This document shows positions 39,982 through 48,523 of a stretch of 64,000 bases of DNA, in pieces. The translations under genes were made by a program, and so were the position numbers. Below the pieces are notes generated by a model, which had not been told where the DNA came from, did not search any database, and saw only the letters and a program-made list of their open reading frames with translations. The stretch comes from Legionella steelei (GTDB taxonomy: Bacteria; Pseudomonadota; Gammaproteobacteria; Legionellales; Legionellaceae). Position 1 is the first letter of the stretch. Every line of letters starts with the position of its first letter. The stretch spans positions 159,756 through 223,755 of the forward strand of contig NZ_LNYY01000016.1 of NCBI RefSeq assembly GCF_001468005.1, given 5' to 3'.

Positions 39982-40027
39982 CAGTATTTATTAAGCCCTA
40001 TTAACTTGATTTTAAATAACACCTAAA

Positions 40028-40441
40028 TTAAGCCACAGATCCAGCAGTTTGTTGTTCTTTAACCGCAGCAACAACTAACTTGCAAAATGTTTCAATGGTA
40101 AATAGCATAGGTATTTCATTGACTTTCATATTCGGCTTGAACTGCTCTGCAGGAATTTCACTCAAATAATTTTGCAATGCCTGCAAACCTCTTTCGGTAA
40201 TAACGCCACCTTTCTCAAATTCATCTTCTGCCAAATCACCTCGTGCATTTTTTTCTAATTGACCACGGGGAATTTTAATTTTGAATTCTTTTTCTAATTG
40301 GAATACCAAATCAAGAAAATCAATAGATTCTGCGCCTAGATCTGCTATCAAACGACTGTTAAGAGATACTTCTTCTACATCAATCACTAGCACATCAGCA
40401 ACAATTTCCCTAACTTTAGGATAAACGTCTGCTACATTCAT
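40028..40441 (-). CDS. Dedicated acyl carrier protein, AcpXL-like
   Basis: Acyl carrier protein of 137 aa, longer than the roughly 78-aa housekeeping ACP. The phosphopantetheine site is Ser39 in LGAESIDFLD, followed by VFQLEKEFKIKIPRGQ, close to the AcpXL pattern of rhizobia; an extra helical C-terminal part (about residues 75-137) is present. GAGGA lies before the ATG. A TATAAT on the minus strand at 40480-40485 could be a -10 box, but I see no matching -35. Would hold the growing very-long chain and hand it to the acyltransferase at the end of the cluster. Confidence 0.9.
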   Translation of the reverse strand: MNVADVYPKVREIVADVLVIDVEEVSLNSRLIADLGAESIDFLDLVFQLEKEFKIKIPRGQLEKNARGDLAEDEFEKGGVITERGLQALQNYLSEIPAEQFKPNMKVNEIPMLFTIETFCKLVVAAVKEQQTAGSVA

Positions 40442-40528
40442 ATTTTTTCCTCAGAGATAGCTAATTTACAAAGCCCGAAATTATATCATATATTTTTTTA
40501 AAGGCATAAAATTAAGAATGACAAGGTA

Positions 40529-41284
40529 TTAACCCACCTGACTGTACCCTGCATCAACAAATAAAGTATGCCCATTAATCATGGCTGCTTCCGGCAAGCA
40601 CAAGAGATAAATAGCATTGGCCACATCTTGAGTTGTCAATGGCCTATCAGCCAAAGAGTGGGCCTGATATTCATCAAGTAGCTGTTCCCTGTTAGGAAAA
40701 TGTTTCAATGCATCGGTATCAACTACTCCAGCAGAAACAGTATTCACAGTAATTCCATCGACAGCCAACTCAAGACTCAAAGAACGGACTAAAGCTTCAA
40801 GAGCAGCCTTAGACGCGCCAATAAATGCATAGTTAGGAATCGCTCGAGATGCACCAAGGCTTGATAAGGCAACAATTCGGCTCCCTTTAGGCATCGATGA
40901 GCGCGCCTCTGTAGCCAAATGATTTAATGCCAAAGCATTTGTTTCTAAGCACCAGCGCCAATGTTTTGTTGACATCTTAAGTGCTGATTTTAAAACACCG
41001 CTTGCAGCATTACTAATTAAAAAATCAAGTCGGTTAAAATGCTCACGAAATTGCACAAACATTTCTTTTACCGACTGATGGTCGGCTACATTAGCTTGTA
41101 ACGCAATCGCTTTGCGCCCCATAGCATGGATTTCTTCAACCAAAGTTTGAGCTTCATCAGAACTGTTGTAATAAACGATGGCAATATCACTTCCTGACTG
41201 AGCTAACTTTAATGCAGTCGCCTTACCGATACCTCGAGCACCGCCAGTAATTAATCCAACTTTACCTGCGAAAACCAAACTCAT
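40529..41284 (-). CDS. fabL: Enoyl-ACP reductase III, FabL-type SDR
   Basis: 251-aa short-chain dehydrogenase. GGARGIGKATA binds NADPH; the catalytic pair is Tyr152 and Lys159 with six residues between (YAFIGASK), the enoyl-reductase spacing, not the YxxxK of ordinary SDRs. The segments NAASGVL, SSLG, SKAALEALVRSL and DTDALKHFPNRE closely match Bacillus FabL as I remember it. This supplies the last step of the elongation cycle. ATG 41284 with GAGGA six bases upstream is the start; the frame to 41329 adds an unlikely extension. First gene of the cluster, 87 bases before the carrier protein. Confidence 0.88.
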   Translation of the reverse strand: MSLVFAGKVGLITGGARGIGKATALKLAQSGSDIAIVYYNSSDEAQTLVEEIHAMGRKAIALQANVADHQSVKEMFVQFREHFNRLDFLISNAASGVLKSALKMSTKHWRWCLETNALALNHLATEARSSMPKGSRIVALSSLGASRAIPNYAFIGASKAALEALVRSLSLELAVDGITVNTVSAGVVDTDALKHFPNREQLLDEYQAHSLADRPLTTQDVANAIYLLCLPEAAMINGHTLFVDAGYSQVG

Positions 41285-41555
41285 GAAATATTCCTCATTA
41301 ACTTCATTTATTAAAAACTGTTGATACAATACGATAGTGACAACTCATGCGACACATGGAGCATAATAGCCTACTAGTACTTCTAAACTCAGAAGCATAA
41401 GTTGACATTTATTGACCAACAATTACAAAAAACTACATTTTCATTTTTATTGAGCAATAAAGCAATGTTTCATGCATTAAATTTTTAAATATCTTGTTTC
41501 TAGATGGCTAACTTTGTACTATCGGCACACAATAAAGATAAACATATATTAATGA

Positions 41556-42908
41556 ATGAAGCATTCTTGGTCTAAAACTGTCTTTCCTATAGCCGCGATT
41601 TTTTCTTTCCGCATGTTAGGTTTGTTTTTGCTCATACCCGTATTTAGTATTTATGCAGAAAATTTACAAAACGCAACACCTGCACTAGTAGGGCTTGCTC
41701 TAGGAATTTATGGTCTTGCTCAAGGCCTCCTGCAAATGCCTTTTGGTATGCTTTCTGATAAGGTAGGAAGAAAACCCATGATAGCCATAGGGTTACTCCT
41801 TTTTGCTTTGGGTAGTTTACTTGGTGCTCTAACCAACTCTATTTATGGGATGATACTTGCAAGATCCTTGCAAGGCACTGGCGCAATTGGTAGTGTTTTA
41901 ATCGCCTTGCTTGCAGATTTAACCCCTGATGATCAACGTACTAAATCGATGGCGGTCATTGGCATGACTATAGGGACATCTTTTAGTCTTGCGATGGTTG
42001 TTAGTCCAGCCCTTACCCATCATTTTGGCCTATCTGGTATTTTTTACCTAACGACTCTATTAGCAATAGCTGGGATTATCTTGCTTTATTTGGTAATTCC
42101 CAAGCCTGTAAATGAACGTTTTCACATTGATAGTGAAACAAATCCTGCTTTATTGAAGAATGTTATTTCTAACGTCCAACTACAACTTCTTAATATCGGT
42201 ATTTTCTGCCAGCATTTTATTCTCACCGCAACATTTTTTGCTATTCCTTTCATCCTAAAAAAACAAGTGGAACAAGGACATTTATCGCAACAGTGGCATT
42301 TTTATCTACCACTGATGATCATTTCATTTATTCTCATGATCCCATTCATTATTCTTGCCGAAAAGAAAAAGCGCATGAAAGGCGTGTTTCTTTCATCAGT
42401 GCTTATCATGGCAATGGCACAATTATTATTAGCTTATACCTCACAACATTGGGTGAGTCTGTGTGTTCTCATGTTAATTTATTTTGTTGCGTTTAATATT
42501 CTAGAGGCGGCATTACCCTCTCTAGTATCTAAACAGGCAAATCCTCACAGTAAGGGGACGGCTATGGGGATTTATTCAACCAGCCAATTTTTAGGCCTTT
42601 TTATTGGTGGGGCACTCGCAGGTGTATTGTATCAATGGAATAGCAGCCAGGGTATTTTTGTTACTAATGCAATCATTGGTATTATATGGTTGCTTGTTTC
42701 ATTTTCAATGAAATCGCAAGCCTCCTTTTCAACACTTGTTTTACCTGCCCCTTGGGCCGAAAAAAATGAGCCGATCATCAACAAATTATTGAATATTAAA
42801 GGGGTGATTGAAGTTGCATTTGCAGAAGATGAACGAGTAATTTATTTGCGTGTTGATAGGGAACGTTATCTTGCAGGCAGTGCGGAAAAAATTATTCATC
42901 ATGGATAA
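41556..42908 (+). CDS. MFS transporter, YajR-like with C-terminal YAM-type domain
   Basis: Twelve-helix major-facilitator protein of 450 aa. Motif A is DKVGRKPM (between helices 2 and 3), and IYSTSQFLGLFIGG belongs to a late helix. After helix 12 comes a cytoplasmic domain of about 55 residues (IINKLLNIKGVIEVAF, YLRVDRERY) like the ferredoxin-like YAM domain of E. coli YajR. Drug export is the family assumption. An MFS gene shortly upstream of ssb is a common gammaproteobacterial arrangement; here other genes are interposed. Start ATG has no strong ribosome site. The 270-base gap to the FabL gene holds divergent promoters, of which only a weak TTGACA-16-TACAAA at 41402 is visible. Confidence 0.88.
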   Translation: MKHSWSKTVFPIAAIFSFRMLGLFLLIPVFSIYAENLQNATPALVGLALGIYGLAQGLLQMPFGMLSDKVGRKPMIAIGLLLFALGSLLGALTNSIYGMILARSLQGTGAIGSVLIALLADLTPDDQRTKSMAVIGMTIGTSFSLAMVVSPALTHHFGLSGIFYLTTLLAIAGIILLYLVIPKPVNERFHIDSETNPALLKNVISNVQLQLLNIGIFCQHFILTATFFAIPFILKKQVEQGHLSQQWHFYLPLMIISFILMIPFIILAEKKKRMKGVFLSSVLIMAMAQLLLAYTSQHWVSLCVLMLIYFVAFNILEAALPSLVSKQANPHSKGTAMGIYSTSQFLGLFIGGALAGVLYQWNSSQGIFVTNAIIGIIWLLVSFSMKSQASFSTLVLPAPWAEKNEPIINKLLNIKGVIEVAFAEDERVIYLRVDRERYLAGSAEKIIHHG

Positions 42909-42930
42909 CCGTTAATCAAGGAGGCAGTAA

Positions 42931-43272
42931 ATGAAAATTTCTTTGAAACATCAAACGACCGAACACAGTAATGCTCCATCCTGTAAAGTCAGTGAGCATC
43001 ATCTGAATGATCCAATGATGGATTGTGCTATTGCAAAAATATCAGGCCGATATCCTGAAACGCGACGAGTAGTGAATTTACAATGCAATGAATTAGTTTA
43101 TGTGTTCCAAGGCGAAGGCAAGGTCGTCGTCAATCATATGGAACATAAATTATCCGCTGGCGATGCAGTATTGATTGAAGCAGGTGAAAAATACTATTGG
43201 GAAGGCGATATGCAACTGTTTATTTCTTGCCGTCCGGCGTGGAGTATGGAGCAACATCAATTGGTTGATTAG
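42931..43272 (+). CDS. Small cupin-domain protein
   Basis: 113-aa single cupin barrel. The conserved core reads VYVFQGEGKVVVN and the second motif LSAGDAVLIEAGEKYYWEG; the usual metal-binding His residues are mostly absent (the first motif has no HxH), so it may not bind metal. AAGGAGGC lies eight bases before the ATG. Twenty-two bases after the MFS gene, so probably co-transcribed. Function unknown. Confidence 0.82.
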   Translation: MKISLKHQTTEHSNAPSCKVSEHHLNDPMMDCAIAKISGRYPETRRVVNLQCNELVYVFQGEGKVVVNHMEHKLSAGDAVLIEAGEKYYWEGDMQLFISCRPAWSMEQHQLVD

Positions 43273-43287
43273 TCTACATACTACTCG

Positions 43288-43342
43288 TAGCCTGGTTGAA
43301 ACGAAGTGTAACCCGGGGTTTTTCTTGCAAAAAACCCGGCTA
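43288..43342. repeat. Inverted-repeat element between convergent genes
   Basis: Outer arms TAGCCTGGTT (43288-) and AACCCGGCTA (-43342) pair with one mismatch; inside them GGGTTTTT (43316-43323) and AAAAAACCC (43329-43337) form a perfect inner stem. Belongs by its TAGCC/GGCTA ends to the same loose family as 32031-32067. Between convergent genes it can end transcription from both sides, although no unpaired U-tract follows. Confidence 0.65.
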
Positions 43343-43374
43343 CTCGACTGATATTATCGGCAATACCCAGTAAG

Positions 43375-44625
43375 TTACTGACGAACCAAGCGCAAATTTT
43401 TACCAACAAATGAGCTCTTCTCCGTAGAACGGTATGGATTGATATCTAATCCACCTCGGCGTGTATACCGGCCATATACGGTTAGTTGTTCTGGTTGGCA
43501 ATAATTCATAATATCGACAAAAATTCGTTCAATACATTGCTCGTGAAATTCATTATGATTACGAAATGAAACAAGATATTTTAATAAACCTTCCCGATTA
43601 ATTTTTTTACCTTTGTAAGCAATTTGCACGCTTCCCCAATCAGGCTGATTTGTCACCAGACAATTAGATTTCAACAGATTTGAATATAATGATTCTTCTA
43701 CAAGCTCCTCGCTTACAAAAAGAAATGAAGGTTCTACATGATAAATTGAGCATTCTATATCAAGGTCGTCAAGCAAATCTCCCGCAAATGACGGTTGTAT
43801 TGCAAACTGATTGGTAGAGTCTAAAAGATGTATGTTAACCCAAACTTCTGCACCAACACGCTCTTGTAAATCTCTTTTAATTGTATTTTCTAACTCACTC
43901 ACACTGTGAATTCGCGTATTGTTAAATGAATTAAAATAAAGTTTTAACGATTTTGATTCAATTAAATTAGGTGAGTTACACTCATAAAACAACTCAGCAA
44001 TCGCAACCATGGGTTTGCCTTTCGCATTAAGCCAAGAAACTTCATAATGATTCCAACAATCAAAGCCATAAAAAGGCAATTTTGATGGGTCCACACCAAT
44101 TTCTTGTCGCTTCCCCGCCCTGGGGATAGGATATAATCGATTGGGATTATACGTATCATCGTAAGCAGATTTCTTACCTAATTCCGACTGCTCCGCTTCA
44201 GCTTGATATTTTTGCAAAACTTGATCATTCATTGTATTGAGCTCCAATATTTCTATTATTTTTGCAGTACTTTTCCAATTCACAGATTGATTCATTTCCA
44301 GTTGACTGGAAATATACGTAAGAAGAGATGCCGCCTCATTAATTCGCGCTGCTTTTTCAGTCAATTCACGTGCTTGTATGCCAACGGAAGCCGCTACATC
44401 AAAACCTGGACTTTCTATAATCTTCTTTATAGTCGACAAAGAAAATCCCAAAAATTTTAGCGTGGTGATCTGCTGCAATCGAATTAAATCCCTTTCACAA
44501 TAAAGTCGATAGCCACTGTCTGAACGCTTCGTAGGTTTTAATAAGCCAATTTCATCATAATATTGTAATGACCTAATTGTTAATGAAGTCATTTGGCTAA
44601 TCTCTTTAATTTGGTAATATTTCAT
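43375..44625 (-). CDS. queF: MerR-type regulator fused to QueF (7-cyano-7-deazaguanine reductase)
   Basis: A 416-aa two-part protein. Residues 1-70 are a MerR winged-helix domain (RSLQYYDEIGLLKP, SGYRLY, LKFLGFSL) followed by a dimer coiled coil (about 76-112). Residues 132-416 are a complete E. coli-type QueF, which reduces preQ0 to preQ1 in queuosine synthesis: NADPH motif IESKS (222-226), nucleophile Cys322 (KSNCLVTNQ), Asp329, and His361-Glu362 (FHEQC), ending INPYRS. No break in frame separates them. Met132 carries GGAG nine bases upstream, so a 285-aa QueF could also be made from an internal start. AGGAGAGG precedes the first ATG. Ordinary QueF has no DNA-binding domain. Confidence 0.92.
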   Translation of the reverse strand: MKYYQIKEISQMTSLTIRSLQYYDEIGLLKPTKRSDSGYRLYCERDLIRLQQITTLKFLGFSLSTIKKIIESPGFDVAASVGIQARELTEKAARINEAASLLTYISSQLEMNQSVNWKSTAKIIEILELNTMNDQVLQKYQAEAEQSELGKKSAYDDTYNPNRLYPIPRAGKRQEIGVDPSKLPFYGFDCWNHYEVSWLNAKGKPMVAIAELFYECNSPNLIESKSLKLYFNSFNNTRIHSVSELENTIKRDLQERVGAEVWVNIHLLDSTNQFAIQPSFAGDLLDDLDIECSIYHVEPSFLFVSEELVEESLYSNLLKSNCLVTNQPDWGSVQIAYKGKKINREGLLKYLVSFRNHNEFHEQCIERIFVDIMNYCQPEQLTVYGRYTRRGGLDINPYRSTEKSSFVGKNLRLVRQ

Positions 44626-44646
44626 TCAACCCTCTCCTGTACATTG

Positions 44647-44677
44647 ATTTTAAACTATCACGTAACGTGAGAGTCAA
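44647..44677 (-). promoter_or_regulatory. MerR-class promoter and operator of the merR-queF gene
   Basis: On the minus strand: -35 TTGACT (44672-44677), -10 TAAAAT (44647-44652), spacer exactly 19 bases. The spacer is centred on the palindrome TCACGTTACGTGA (44658-44670), extended to CT-N-...-N-AG. Overlong 19-base spacers with a central palindrome are the hallmark of promoters activated by MerR-family proteins, which untwist the DNA. It drives the fusion gene, whose ATG is 22 bases further. The divergent Nudix gene shares this 91-base gap. Confidence 0.8.
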
Positions 44678-44716
44678 GAGAATATGCAATAAAATACACC
44701 AAAGGGATAATAAATT

Positions 44717-45340
44717 ATGTCTAAGAAAGATTTAAGTTGGTTAAAATATATTGCTGAAATTCAAGCAATCGCACAAAATGGACTGACCTATTCAAATAAT
44801 GAGTTTGATAAAGAACGTTATTTAAGACTTCGCGAAATTGCCTCTGAATTTATGGCGAATTATTCAGACACGCCACTTGCTGAGATAAAACAGATTTTTT
44901 CATTAGAAGCAGGATATGCCACACCTAAAGTTGATGTTCGAGCGTTTATTTTAAAGGATAACAAGCTCTTATTGGTTAAGGAGCGTGCCGATGAATTGTG
45001 GACTCTACCTGGTGGTTGGGCAGAAACAAACGAGTCTGCCGCCGAATCCGTAATTAGGGAAACTAAGGAAGAAAGTGGATTTGATGTTTCTGTAATTCGG
45101 CTGCTCGCTCTATGGGACAAACAGAAGCATGATCATCCATTACAATGGCCTCATACCTATAAATGCTTTTTTCATTGTGAAATTATCTCTGGTGTGGCCA
45201 AGGAAAATCTAGAAATTTCTGCGATTGATTTTTTTGATTTAGCACATTTACCACCTCTTTCAACACCAAGAGTCACACAAAAGCAAATTGCGCGCTTATA
45301 TGAACTTGTTAATAGTTCTGATAAAACTCTTTTTGACTGA
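44717..45340 (+). CDS. Nudix hydrolase with N-terminal helical domain
   Basis: 207 aa. Residues 1-60 form the helical N-terminal domain seen in ADP-ribose/CDP-choline-type pyrophosphatases (hydrolases of X-linked moieties in nucleotides). The Nudix box begins at Gly100: GGWAETNESA...RETKEESG with all Glu ligands and the Arg present. AAGGGA lies nine bases before the ATG. Divergent from the MerR-QueF gene across a 91-base gap with a MerR operator, so co-regulation is plausible. Substrate unknown; the N-terminal domain suggests a nucleoside diphosphate linked to a small group. Confidence 0.9.
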   Translation: MSKKDLSWLKYIAEIQAIAQNGLTYSNNEFDKERYLRLREIASEFMANYSDTPLAEIKQIFSLEAGYATPKVDVRAFILKDNKLLLVKERADELWTLPGGWAETNESAAESVIRETKEESGFDVSVIRLLALWDKQKHDHPLQWPHTYKCFFHCEIISGVAKENLEISAIDFFDLAHLPPLSTPRVTQKQIARLYELVNSSDKTLFD

Positions 45341-45473
45341 GCATGTACTTGACGCAGTACTTACGTCATACTTGGCCGTTACCAACGAAAAGGAAAATCG
45401 ATGGAACAGCAGTGCAAGGGCTATATAAATTAGGTATACTCTTTTCTAACTTTCGCATACAGGAGATCAAAAA

Positions 45474-45944
45474 ATGGCACGTGGTATAAATAAAGTCATC
45501 TTAATTGGCAATGTCGGTGTCGACCCTGACGTACGCTATTTACCAAATGGTAATGCTGTAACTACTCTCTCAATAGCAACCAGTGAATCATGGAAAGATA
45601 AAGTAACTGGTGAAAAGCAAGATCGTACAGAATGGCATCGCGTGGTGTGCTTTAATCGCTTGGGTGAAATTGCCGGTGAATATGTACGTAAAGGTTCTAA
45701 GCTTTATGTAGAAGGCAGCTTAAGAACCAGAAAATGGCAGGATCAACAAGGCCAAGACCGATATACCACTGAAATTGTTGCCAATGACATTCAAATGTTA
45801 GACAGCAAAGGGACGGCTTCATCCGGTTTTGATGAGATGCCACAAGCCCAATTTTCGCCAAGCAATCAAAGTGCTCCAAGACAACAACCGACTCAAGTGC
45901 CACAAGATGCTTTTGATCAATTAGATGATGATGTCCCATTCTAA
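45474..45944 (+). CDS. ssb: Single-stranded DNA-binding protein SSB
   Basis: Binds single-stranded DNA in replication, repair and recombination; 156 aa. OB-fold start [22 protein letters not shown] and GSKLYVEG; a Gln/Pro-rich linker and the acidic partner-binding tip DDDVPF at the C-terminus are all intact. AGGAG lies ten bases before the ATG. Followed by a strong terminator at 45982, so it is the last gene of its transcript. Confidence 0.97.
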
Positions 45945-45981
45945 TTTCAACTGAATAGTAGTCCTTACTTCTTACTTTATT

Positions 45982-46006
45982 GCCCTTACTAATAAGGGCT
46001 TTTTTT
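45982..46006 (+). terminator. Rho-independent terminator after ssb
   Basis: GCCCTTA (45982-45988), loop CTAA, TAAGGGC (45993-45999), followed by seven T. A seven-pair stem with tetraloop and U-tract, 37 bases after the ssb stop. Confidence 0.9.
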
Positions 46007-46202
46007 CATAACGAGTTATTTTTCTACTGCGGTGTAAATGCCGTGAAGCAAAACCTGGAGATACTGTATATCGAGGGCAACGCGAATGCTACTTCGCTAC
46101 CCAAACTACCGACTCCACATTATCATTATTAATTGTGAACTGATATTTTACATACTTGATCATGAACCAATATTTTCATTCATTAATCCAATTGAGGTTT
46201 GT

Positions 46203-46558
46203 ATGGATACAATTAATTTAGTTGAGAAATTCAAACTTTTAGCGAGTATTGGTCACCACGTATTGTTGGAGAACTTAATGGTCAATATGTCAAACTTGCA
46301 AAATTCAAGGGAGAGTTCATCTGGCATAGCCATGCTAATGAAGATGAATTATTTCTAGTTGTGAAGGGCATTCCAAACATTGAGTTCAGGCATAAAAAAA
46401 TCACCTTAAATGAAGGTGAATTTTATATTGTACCCAAAGGCGTAGAACATAAACCGGTTGCACACGAAGAGGTACATGTCCTCCTGTTAGAACCAAAATC
46501 TACAGAGCAGACAGGTGGTATTGAGAGTGATTTACTTGTAGAACAGCCGTGGATTTAA
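46203..46558 (+). pseudogene. Cupin-like gene broken by a one-base frameshift
   Basis: The first 12 codons from ATG 46203 (MDTINLVEKFKL) are continued in another frame by FSEYWSPRIVGELNGQ, HSHANEDELFLVV and GEFYIVPKGVEHKP, a normal small metal-type cupin that ends EQPWI at 46558. Adding one T to the TTTT run at 46237-46240 restores a single frame of 118 aa. The break thus looks like loss of one base in a homopolymer: a young pseudogene or a sequencing error. The first motif HSHANEDE and the late HxP... region keep metal-ligand residues, so the intact form would have been functional. The 195 bases after the ssb terminator otherwise show nothing. Confidence 0.8.
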
Positions 46559-46780
46559 TTTGTTGATAAAAACAAATAAATCGCTAGTTTAGACCTCATA
46601 TTTTTTTTCAGTAGTGGTAGAATTGAGTTTGTATCAAGTTCCTTTTGATGCATGCTACAGCAAGCACCATCACTTCAATGAAGGAGAAAGTCCCTCATGC
46701 TAAAAGTTGGACGAACATCCTAAAAATTCAAGAATTTATTTATATAATTTAGCATTATTTACAGGCGATATAGGCATTTA

Positions 46781-48523
46781 ATGATCGAAAAACACAGCTT
46801 TTTTCCTTATCTCAAAAAACAAAAGTACGTCGTTATATTTAATTATATTCATTATGATGGCATAGGTGATTTTAATCATCTTCTTGATTTTGCAAAAGAA
46901 TTTACTCCGCAGGCTGAAAAATTGGGGATAAAAATCATTCTTCTTGTTGTAAGTACTGCACATAGGGAAAAATTAGTAAAACAACGCCTACAAACTATAT
47001 TACCAGCACTAAAAGCCCATGTCCTGGAGTTGGGGGAAAGCTCAGGAGATAAGGCAATTCAGGAGTTTTCCAATTTCATTCAAAACAACCTCGAATTAAA
47101 GAGCGAATTAAGTACCACTTGCAGCATTTTTCAAATCTCTACATCCATGGCCAAAGCACAAAAAGATGCTATATTGAGCTTTTGCCCATCCGAAATACCC
47201 GTCATCACTATCCCCGAAATCACAGGGTTACGTACCTCTGCCTTAAATCTGCCGCTTAGTCATATTGATCCGAGAGATGAAATGACTCAGATAGATTTAA
47301 AAACCCAAAATATTAATACACGATATCTTGGACTGCAAAAGGTTCCTTATCAGTATGGGTTGAAAATTAGGAGTCACTGTCTTCTAAGTTTGATGGCATT
47401 GGAAAATAGAAATTTTTTCAAGCATGTAACAGGTCTAAACGATTCCGCACCAATCACTCCAGAAGACATATCAAAAATGTTAGCTAAAACACAGTTAGTC
47501 CCTGCTTACCTACAAGACTGGGATAGTATCAATCGATTTCTATCTTTTTGTATTCAGAGATTTCAAATATCTAATCAGGAGCACTTGGTAATCTATTTAA
47601 ATAATATTAGACACAATAATCGAACTGGTGTCTTTAGTGTAGTTCCTCATATTCTACTCGACGCTGAAGAAATTCTATTTCTAGAAGAGAATCAATTTGA
47701 TGATTTAATCATCAAACGAAAAAACAAACAGTATTTGCCATTTATGGAAGAACAGCTAATATTCGGTTCCTTATTCTTATTCGCAAGAAATTCAAATATT
47801 TCTGCTATAGAAATTAATGTAAATGGCAATATTCGTAGAATTAACTACAGTCCCACAACGATTTGCAATCCACCAAAGGTTGTTTCCATTTTAACCGATT
47901 TTAATTTGAATGATACTGATTACGATCTCCTGATAGAAAACGCGTCCGACATAGTTGGAGTCTCAGGTGATAATACCATTGAAAAAGCGCTCTCATACAA
48001 TAAACTACCCTTTTTGCAACCCAACAACAAAGAAAACTTTGAATCGGTCATGAGGTTGCTCGGTCACTTAGCCAAGCTCTATTTACCGATTGACACACCA
48101 AATCTGCATAAAGACTTTGAAGCATTTTTTTGTAATAAAATGATGCGCTTAGATAAACCTGAGTGTTTTACCAATTTACTAGAGATCGACATTCGATCAC
48201 TTTATAAGGTATGGCCAGCAGTGGTTGAAGGTTTACGCCAGAATTACAATATCTTTAATCAAATTCATGCCATCTTTTATGAACCACTTCTTCACTACAG
48301 TGCTCAAACAGGCGATATCGCCTTGTTGCATTTAATTCATAATCATTTTGAAGACATCAATTTCAATATTCCTAATAAACAGGATGAAACGGCATTAACA
48401 ATTGCTGAAAAAAATAACCACAGATTGTTTATTAAGGAGTTGCAATCTCTTATGCAAAAAAAGGAAGAATCAAAAGATCTTAGAATAAGCAATAAAAACT
48501 GTTTATCCAATAACGTTGGTTAA
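46781..48523 (+). CDS. Candidate effector: GT-B-like protein with C-terminal ankyrin-like repeats
   Basis: 580 aa, low-GC, not recognised as a named family. The N-terminus (YIHYDGIGDFNHLLDFA) resembles the GxGD loop of GT-B glycosyltransferases, and about residues 385-417 read ENASDIVGVSGDNTIEKALS then LPFLQP, a pattern like the donor-binding part of that fold. Residues about 497-560 look like two ankyrin repeats (LLHYSAQTGDIALLHLI; DETALTIAEKNNHRLFIKEL). The tail has KKEESKD, a modest glutamate-rich signal. Taken together it looks like a secreted host-directed protein; glycosyltransferase activity is only inferred. It stands alone, 258 bases from the cupin pseudogene start region and convergent to the ribosomal cluster. 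Confidence 0.75.
   Translation: MIEKHSFFPYLKKQKYVVIFNYIHYDGIGDFNHLLDFAKEFTPQAEKLGIKIILLVVSTAHREKLVKQRLQTILPALKAHVLELGESSGDKAIQEFSNFIQNNLELKSELSTTCSIFQISTSMAKAQKDAILSFCPSEIPVITIPEITGLRTSALNLPLSHIDPRDEMTQIDLKTQNINTRYLGLQKVPYQYGLKIRSHCLLSLMALENRNFFKHVTGLNDSAPITPEDISKMLAKTQLVPAYLQDWDSINRFLSFCIQRFQISNQEHLVIYLNNIRHNNRTGVFSVVPHILLDAEEILFLEENQFDDLIIKRKNKQYLPFMEEQLIFGSLFLFARNSNISAIEINVNGNIRRINYSPTTICNPPKVVSILTDFNLNDTDYDLLIENASDIVGVSGDNTIEKALSYNKLPFLQPNNKENFESVMRLLGHLAKLYLPIDTPNLHKDFEAFFCNKMMRLDKPECFTNLLEIDIRSLYKVWPAVVEGLRQNYNIFNQIHAIFYEPLLHYSAQTGDIALLHLIHNHFEDINFNIPNKQDETALTIAEKNNHRLFIKELQSLMQKKEESKDLRISNKNCLSNNVG

Follow-up and report, generated by a model that had tools for sequence, protein, structure and literature searches.

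A conserved MerR-QueF fusion of Legionella, very probably a self-regulator, with a predicted second QueF product from an internal start

Several pathway enzymes, the so-called trigger enzymes PutA, BirA and NadR among them, also control transcription, and the genes of the queuosine precursor preQ1 are known to be controlled by preQ1 riboswitches. In Streptomyces, the autoregulated TipA system produces two proteins, TipAL and TipAS, from two starts, and thiopeptides are bound covalently via a cysteine (PMC7762955, partial text). Here we analyze a gene that brings a MerR-type regulator and the queuosine enzyme QueF together in one frame. It lies in a 64,000-nucleotide stretch of Legionella steelei (contig NZ_LNYY01000016.1, positions 159,756 to 223,755; hereafter the window), and we compare it with its relatives in other genomes and with the systems named above (G, C and L numbers denote genomes, contigs and loci of our samples).

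As an earlier sequence-only reading of the window had proposed, the MerR and QueF parts are joined in frame in a protein of 416 residues with an ATG start and no internal stop (Table 1). A stop or frameshift missed between residues 112 and 135 is excluded, since 61 of the 76 loci considered carry a full-length open frame; these reduce to 42 distinct fusions, the window's own included, and the others are 63-89% identical to the window protein. The 15 loci set aside lack MerR, are cut by a contig end or are broken elsewhere (in L195/L179 and L021 the MerR frame runs for only 20 or 28 codons; L081-L084 are split near residue 183). Both PF13411 and PF00376 match the N-terminal part, and the winged helix-turn-helix (HTH), the coiled coil and a promoter with a long-spacer dyad all place it in the MerR family. 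In the same Pfam scan MerR_1 is followed by QueF_N (residues 155-265, 2.8e-44) and QueF (328-403, 1.4e-28), with no effector domain found besides QueF, and the QueF equivalog TIGR03138 of NCBIfam scores 403.6 bits, its cut-off being 293.45. Among the best solved structures for the N-terminal part are MtaN, a MerR-like regulator (3qao), SkgA and TipA, and the closest solved sequences for the C-terminal part are bimodular QueF enzymes. The claim of a complete QueF also held: Cys322, Asp329, His361 and Glu362, together with E223, K225, S226, K228 and Y230 of the QueF motif, are present and unchanged across the 42 fusions. By offset, Cys322, Asp329, Glu362 and Cys364 match Cys194, Asp201, Glu234 and Cys236 of V. 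cholerae QueF (numbering from PMC5372742, partial text). A non-functional QueF was considered and rejected on the invariant active-site residues. The fusion is the sole QueF of its genome, which also encodes QueC and TGT; among 45 genomes of the genus, QueC is above cut-off in 44 and TGT in all 45.

The recurrence of the fusion in Legionellales, which the sequence-only reading had left to an architecture search, was found in the order sample (143 genomes, all of one family), where 40 genomes have matches that span the full length (from residue 1 or 2 to residue 416) and 7 have no match at E<=1e-60. In 27 of the 40 the fusion is the single match; six carry an additional copy split into two frames, four have two intact fusions, G076 and G116 an intact stand-alone QueF as well, and G094 a second copy containing stops, so that 38 of the 40 have no separate intact QueF at the same threshold. 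The MerR part is broken in G092 and G099, and the G008 match runs off its contig. Named relatives include L. anisa, L. bozemanae, L. parisiensis, L. longbeachae, L. saoudiensis and L. worsleiensis. In the class sample (369 genomes, 365 outside the family and 4 within), no full-length fusion outside the family is among the matches listed; two QueF genes with odd alignments there (G437, G328) turned out to be ordinary stand-alone genes. The one annotated relative inspected, the copy on the L. adelaidensis plasmid NZ_LR134431 (15352-16602, L231), is listed as plain QueF beginning at the internal ATG described below, and the fusion is invisible there; hence, other fusions of this kind may go unnoticed in databases. 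A closely similar copy occurs as two frames, always with the break at one position (L081-L084; G135:C53, G126:C12, G119:C2, G117:C2, G136:C54, G133:C1 and G092:C3), and the split copy sits on plasmids of about 144-150 kb (NZ_CP025492, NZ_CP042253, NZ_CP045305, NZ_CP082855). Its first frame retains MerR (226 residues) and the promoter, its second holds most of QueF, and a regulator-only product from such copies is possible.

Within the fusion frame, codons 127-132 read [TC]TG GAG NNN NNN NNN ATG in 41 of the 42 fusions, the exception having TTA at codon 127, and thus embed a Shine-Dalgarno sequence ahead of Met132. Codon 128 is GAG throughout, whereas GAG makes up on average 36% of the codons in nine other invariant Glu columns; codon 127 ends in TG in 41/42, compared with a best count of 29/42 over 23 other invariant Leu columns. 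Mapped on a codon tree, codon 128 shows no synonymous change as against 5-13 at the nine other Glu columns, and the third base of codon 127 changes once as against 4-13 times at other Leu columns. Moreover, ATG132 is the sole codon reading ATG in all 42, the first start being GTG in L008, and the synonymous variation of the gene reaches its minimum in the six codons from codon 127 (0.37 vs. 0.85 overall). Eleven of 60 solo queF genes start at the same signal (two pairs are identical; L103 is from Piscirickettsia), and in the chromosomal copies of G092 and G099 the MerR frame stops after 28 and 20 codons, respectively, with the internal Shine-Dalgarno sequence, the ATG and the QueF frame intact. 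In the NCBI record, the annotated queF of the L. adelaidensis relative starts exactly at this ATG. Given this conservation at the nucleotide level, we consider it quite likely that a second, bare-QueF product is made from the internal start.

The putative autoregulatory promoter upstream of the gene is the sole match to the strict promoter pattern inside the window. All 42 fusions have the TTGAC box, an exact 19-base gap after the -35 hexamer, the dyad ACG-N3-CGT and a TANA[AC]T-like box, whose end lies 16-24 bases upstream of the start codon; promoter positions 5, 8, 10, 11, 16-18, 20 and 21 are invariant as well, though not fixed by the search pattern. Among the 60 solo (MerR-less) queF loci, two further frameless loci not being counted, the promoter is present at one, the fossil L190. 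With the 31-base pattern and up to 2 mismatches, 48 sites were found in the 45 genus genomes and none in the reversed control. By coordinates, 40 of these sit at fusion genes or their derivatives (31 intact fusions, 2 MerR-broken fusions and 7 split copies), hence the target of the fusion appears to be chiefly itself. The other eight comprise L190, L189 and six sites preceding other MerR genes (L191-L194, L241, L242; the L193 MerR frame begins late), of which L191 was Pfam-scanned and contains a TipAS domain; this type of site is thus common to the fusion and TipA-like regulators. Judging from these sites, the fusion seems to act mainly on its own promoter, to which it is predicted to bind. 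A wider regulon was sought and rejected: the 14-mer core, two mismatches being allowed, gave 25 matches in the own genome and 58 in the reversed control, and among the 25 only the own promoter (two overlapping matches) shows the full pattern. The divergent NUDIX gene was likewise rejected as a regulated partner, as it adjoins the site in only part of the fusions and other neighbors are found elsewhere, and riboswitch control was dropped, there being no Rfam match at E<=1 within 40000-48500.

We further estimated the ratio of nonsynonymous to synonymous substitution rates (dN/dS) from 164 fusion pairs at 80-97% protein identity. It amounts to 0.088 in the HTH, 0.100 in the coil (residues 72-112), 0.154 in residues 133-147 and 0.089 in the remaining QueF, and is lowest of the five regions in the linker (residues 113-131, 19 codons; 0.043). 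By this measure, the MerR half is constrained by the same purifying selection as the QueF half. Evolutionary distances in the two halves correlate with r=0.92 (the largest of 999 permutations was 0.31), and on this evidence the halves co-evolve.

With regard to the MerR half, the nearest relatives that we found by sequence are TipA-like MerR proteins. On a tree of 77 rows, including L232 and L233 and built from few columns with long branches, one branch sets the 42 fused MerRs apart (bootstrap 90; Shimodaira-Hasegawa-like approximate likelihood ratio test 77; 88% of 200 bootstrap trees), and their grouping is thus moderately supported. L232 and L233 (G293) are the best-scoring MerR-only matches in the class sample (41% identity; E 2e-33 and 1e-33) and adjoin the fused clade, although their long branches make the placement unsure. 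They give weak TipAS matches (22.4 and 21.4 bits, below the 23.8 cut-off) starting at residues 145 and 139, so that QueF appears to occupy the position of TipAS-type domains. The best MerR match within the own genome is L002 (946-1887; 314 residues, 38% over residues 4-130). It belongs to a family of about 320 residues (L002, L201-L230) present in 31 of the 45 genus genomes at E<=1e-40, with the linker W..IIQLIEVY[RK]M and GAGG-N8-ATG at the matching place; in a count that includes near-copies, GAG is found in 29 of 30 readable rows and GAA in one, and another row is printed at a different Met. Perhaps this family is another two-product regulator.

Several observations weigh against a conserved self-regulator with an internal start. 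The six codons from codon 138 are nearly as low in synonymous variation (0.38) as those from codon 127, the Lys7 and Phe231 codons likewise show no changes, and the 9 nt between the Shine-Dalgarno sequence and the ATG are somewhat long. A Met is missing from the junction in L232 and L233; we have therefore withdrawn, as a firm claim, the view that the domains were exchanged precisely at an internal start already inherited, which the MerRs of about 320 residues had suggested. The second start may have been inherited from a TipA-like regulator or, in view of that junction, may be queF's own old start. Additionally, 103 of the 143 order genomes have no full-length fusion, and on a quick tree of 101 QueF domains, 42 from fusions and 59 from solo genes with two loci skipped, the two forms are mixed. 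Strongly supported branches require at least 7 changes and the tree as drawn 16, a count that does not distinguish gain from loss. Hence, self-regulatory control would be dispensable.

Since solo genes bear MerR fossils, one fusion followed by many losses is the natural reading, and the MerR half has probably been lost repeatedly, leaving these remnants behind. They include an in-frame linker ahead of the start (L055, L057), a remnant of the coil in a different frame (L063) and linker/coil remnants (L181, L182); L190 (526-1466) retains the MerR-type promoter, its -35 box 83 bases upstream of the queF start, with the MerR frame gone between them. Most solo queF loci show no MerR remnant. Two further arrangements were noticed. 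L189 (992-1515) retains promoter, MerR and linker in a frame that stops after 158 residues, early in QueF, in a genome with a separate QueF. In L097 (3001-4466; G468:C55, which may be the same genome, is laid out alike) the order is reversed, the queF stop overlapping the MerR ATG (TGATG), and a stop at codon 7 interrupts the MerR frame.

Taking these points together, we consider MerR-QueF very probably a real, conserved self-regulator. What the comparison shows is a single gene that has a MerR-type promoter of its own, encodes MerR-QueF in a long frame and carries an internal QueF start conserved at the nucleotide level. The sequence-only reading had suggested that the enzyme might be its own metabolite sensor, with binding of preQ0, preQ1 or NADPH by QueF controlling transcription. 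The parts of this that find support are the conserved protein, with QueF in the place of the sensor domain, and the conserved site at its own promoter; the internal start, the TipA-like relatives and the repeated MerR loss had been overlooked. In the MerR mechanism, on which we build here, the exact 19-bp spacing is the activation geometry. The dimeric long form would occupy this promoter and keep expression low; upon preQ0 build-up or NADPH shortage, preQ0 would be retained on Cys322 as a stable thioimide, which would shift the QueF dimer and, via the linker, let MerR realign the promoter. The single message would then give more long form as well as bare catalytic QueF from the internal start, and this bare QueF, as the main catalyst, would convert preQ0 to preQ1 and reset the switch. 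The QueF thioimide decays at about 5e-6 per second, and V. cholerae QueF is a homodimer (PMC5372742, partial text). We favor, with some reservation, a TipA-like gene in which QueF serves as the C-terminal effector domain, and it is reasonably probable that the ligand state of QueF governs DNA binding. That preQ0, or its thioimide, is the inducer is a tentative proposal. Slightly more tentative is the complete self-resetting switch, in which the thioimide of preQ0 with Cys322, carried by the long form while bound to DNA, would be the signal and NADPH reduction the off step, the bare enzyme from the same message clearing the substrate.

Other explanations were also considered. The fusion might be an unliganded autorepressor, MerR steadying the QueF level by binding its own promoter (a concentration feedback) and QueF sensing nothing and being joined for convenience. 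The promoter sites lie mostly at the own gene, the protein has no effector domain apart from QueF, and no Cys in the MerR half is invariant, hence no obvious metal or thiol sensor is seen there. However, the exact 19-bp spacing in 42/42 fusions would be odd for a pure repressor, and the linker has the lowest dN/dS, so this explanation is unlikely. Rather improbable, too, is a redox or NADPH sensor, in which oxidation of Cys322 (a disulfide with Cys364) or the NADPH state, rather than preQ0, would be the signal. Both cysteines are invariant in the 42 fusions, the B. subtilis QueF forms a reversible Cys55-Cys99 disulfide with loop rearrangement, and the second Cys occurs in 100% of 1375 bimodular QueF (PMC5372742, partial text); yet the two cysteines are equally invariant in 15 stand-alone QueF alignment rows and are thus not special to the fusion. 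That MerR is a decaying passenger, the internal start alone mattering and the product being ordinary QueF, would agree with the many relatives in which MerR is absent or broken and with the annotated queF start in L. adelaidensis, but the low dN/dS of the HTH, the promoter dyad kept in 42/42 and the co-evolution of the halves make it very improbable. That the fusion stems from an error of sequencing or assembly, or from two genes read through by chance, is refuted by the 42 distinct fusions from many assemblies, some of them single-contig (genomes G131, G105, G064 and G097 among these).

Elsewhere in the window, positions 46086-46558 hold two short cupin-like open reading frames in different frames, which some relatives match in two pieces and which are possibly a broken gene, and positions 46781-48523 hold a frame of 580 residues whose C-terminal part is ankyrin-like by eye.

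Table 1. Features of the MerR-QueF locus (positions in the window; residue and codon numbers of the long product).
Feature	Positions	Strand	Remarks
MerR-type promoter, probably autoregulated	44647..44677	-	-35 TTGACT; exact 19-bp spacer with dyad CACGTTACGTG; -10 TAAAAT
Shine-Dalgarno AGGAG for long product	44634..44638	-	sequence
MerR-QueF fusion, long product	43375..44625	-	uninterrupted 416-codon frame, 416 residues, ATG start; Pfam/NCBIfam
MerR winged-helix DNA-binding domain, residues 4-71	44413..44616	-	PF13411, 2.4e-16
Coiled coil and linker, residues 72-131	44233..44412	-	aligns with the TipA-like MerR linker
Embedded Shine-Dalgarno TTGGAG, codons 127-128	44242..44247	-	GAG 42/42, xTG 41/42
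Internal ATG, Met132, start of short QueF	44230..44232	-	ATG 42/42
Predicted short product, QueF alone, 285 residues	43375..44232	-	holds both PF14819 and PF14489; length resembles stand-alone QueF
QueF (NADPH) motif ESKSLKLY, residues 223-230	43936..43959	-	E223, K225, S226, K228, Y230 invariant
QueF catalytic region	43534..43662	-	Cys322, Asp329, His361, Glu362, Cys364 invariant in 42 fusions
Cys322	43660-43662	-	
Asp329	43639-43641	-	
His361	43543-43545	-	
Glu362	43540-43542	-	
Cys364	43534-43536	-	

The TipA-like gene with QueF as effector domain can now be set against the described systems. With the TipA class (TipAL/TipAS of Streptomyces lividans, Mta, SkgA) the fusion shares the MerR HTH and coiled coil, a C-terminal domain that can be produced alone from a second start (predicted in the fusion) and an autoregulated gene (putative in the fusion). 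The TipA cysteine holds its ligand covalently (PMC7762955, partial text), and the QueF cysteine likewise holds preQ0 (PMC5372742, partial text). The C-terminal domain of the fusion is, however, a complete tRNA-modification enzyme and not the antibiotic-binding TipAS domain; no PF07739 (TipAS) match is found in the fusion, QueF standing in that place, and thus it would work like TipA but is not classed as a TipA member. L232 and L233 (251-260 residues, from another family of the class) have a similar linker, and their weak TipAS match begins where QueF begins in the fusion, but they have no second start at the junction. The Legionella MerRs of about 320 residues have a similar linker, the internal signal and their own MerR-type promoter; they differ in a C-terminal domain with no Pfam match above cut-off, and in the L002 group the operator sequence differs. 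Bimodular QueF of the V. cholerae and E. coli type (TIGR03138) corresponds to the fusion in the whole QueF with every active-site residue, whereas the solved enzymes matched have no DNA-binding domain and here MerR is joined in frame. In line with the sequence-only reading, which knew of no description, no title or abstract opening among the papers listed by our searches of the open PubMed Central (PMC) literature names a MerR-QueF protein.

The fusion would illustrate how a regulator and an enzyme can be obtained from one frame. If our interpretation is true, the locus would be a one-gene homeostat for the queuosine precursor, with an entire enzyme installed in the effector seat of a TipA-like MerR regulator, and the enzyme may act as a sensor of its substrate and determine its own level. 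Unlike the trigger enzymes, the fusion has a separable MerR module and a predicted enzyme-only product, and its target seems to be chiefly its own gene; unlike control by preQ1 riboswitches, its control of queuosine precursor supply would be protein-based.
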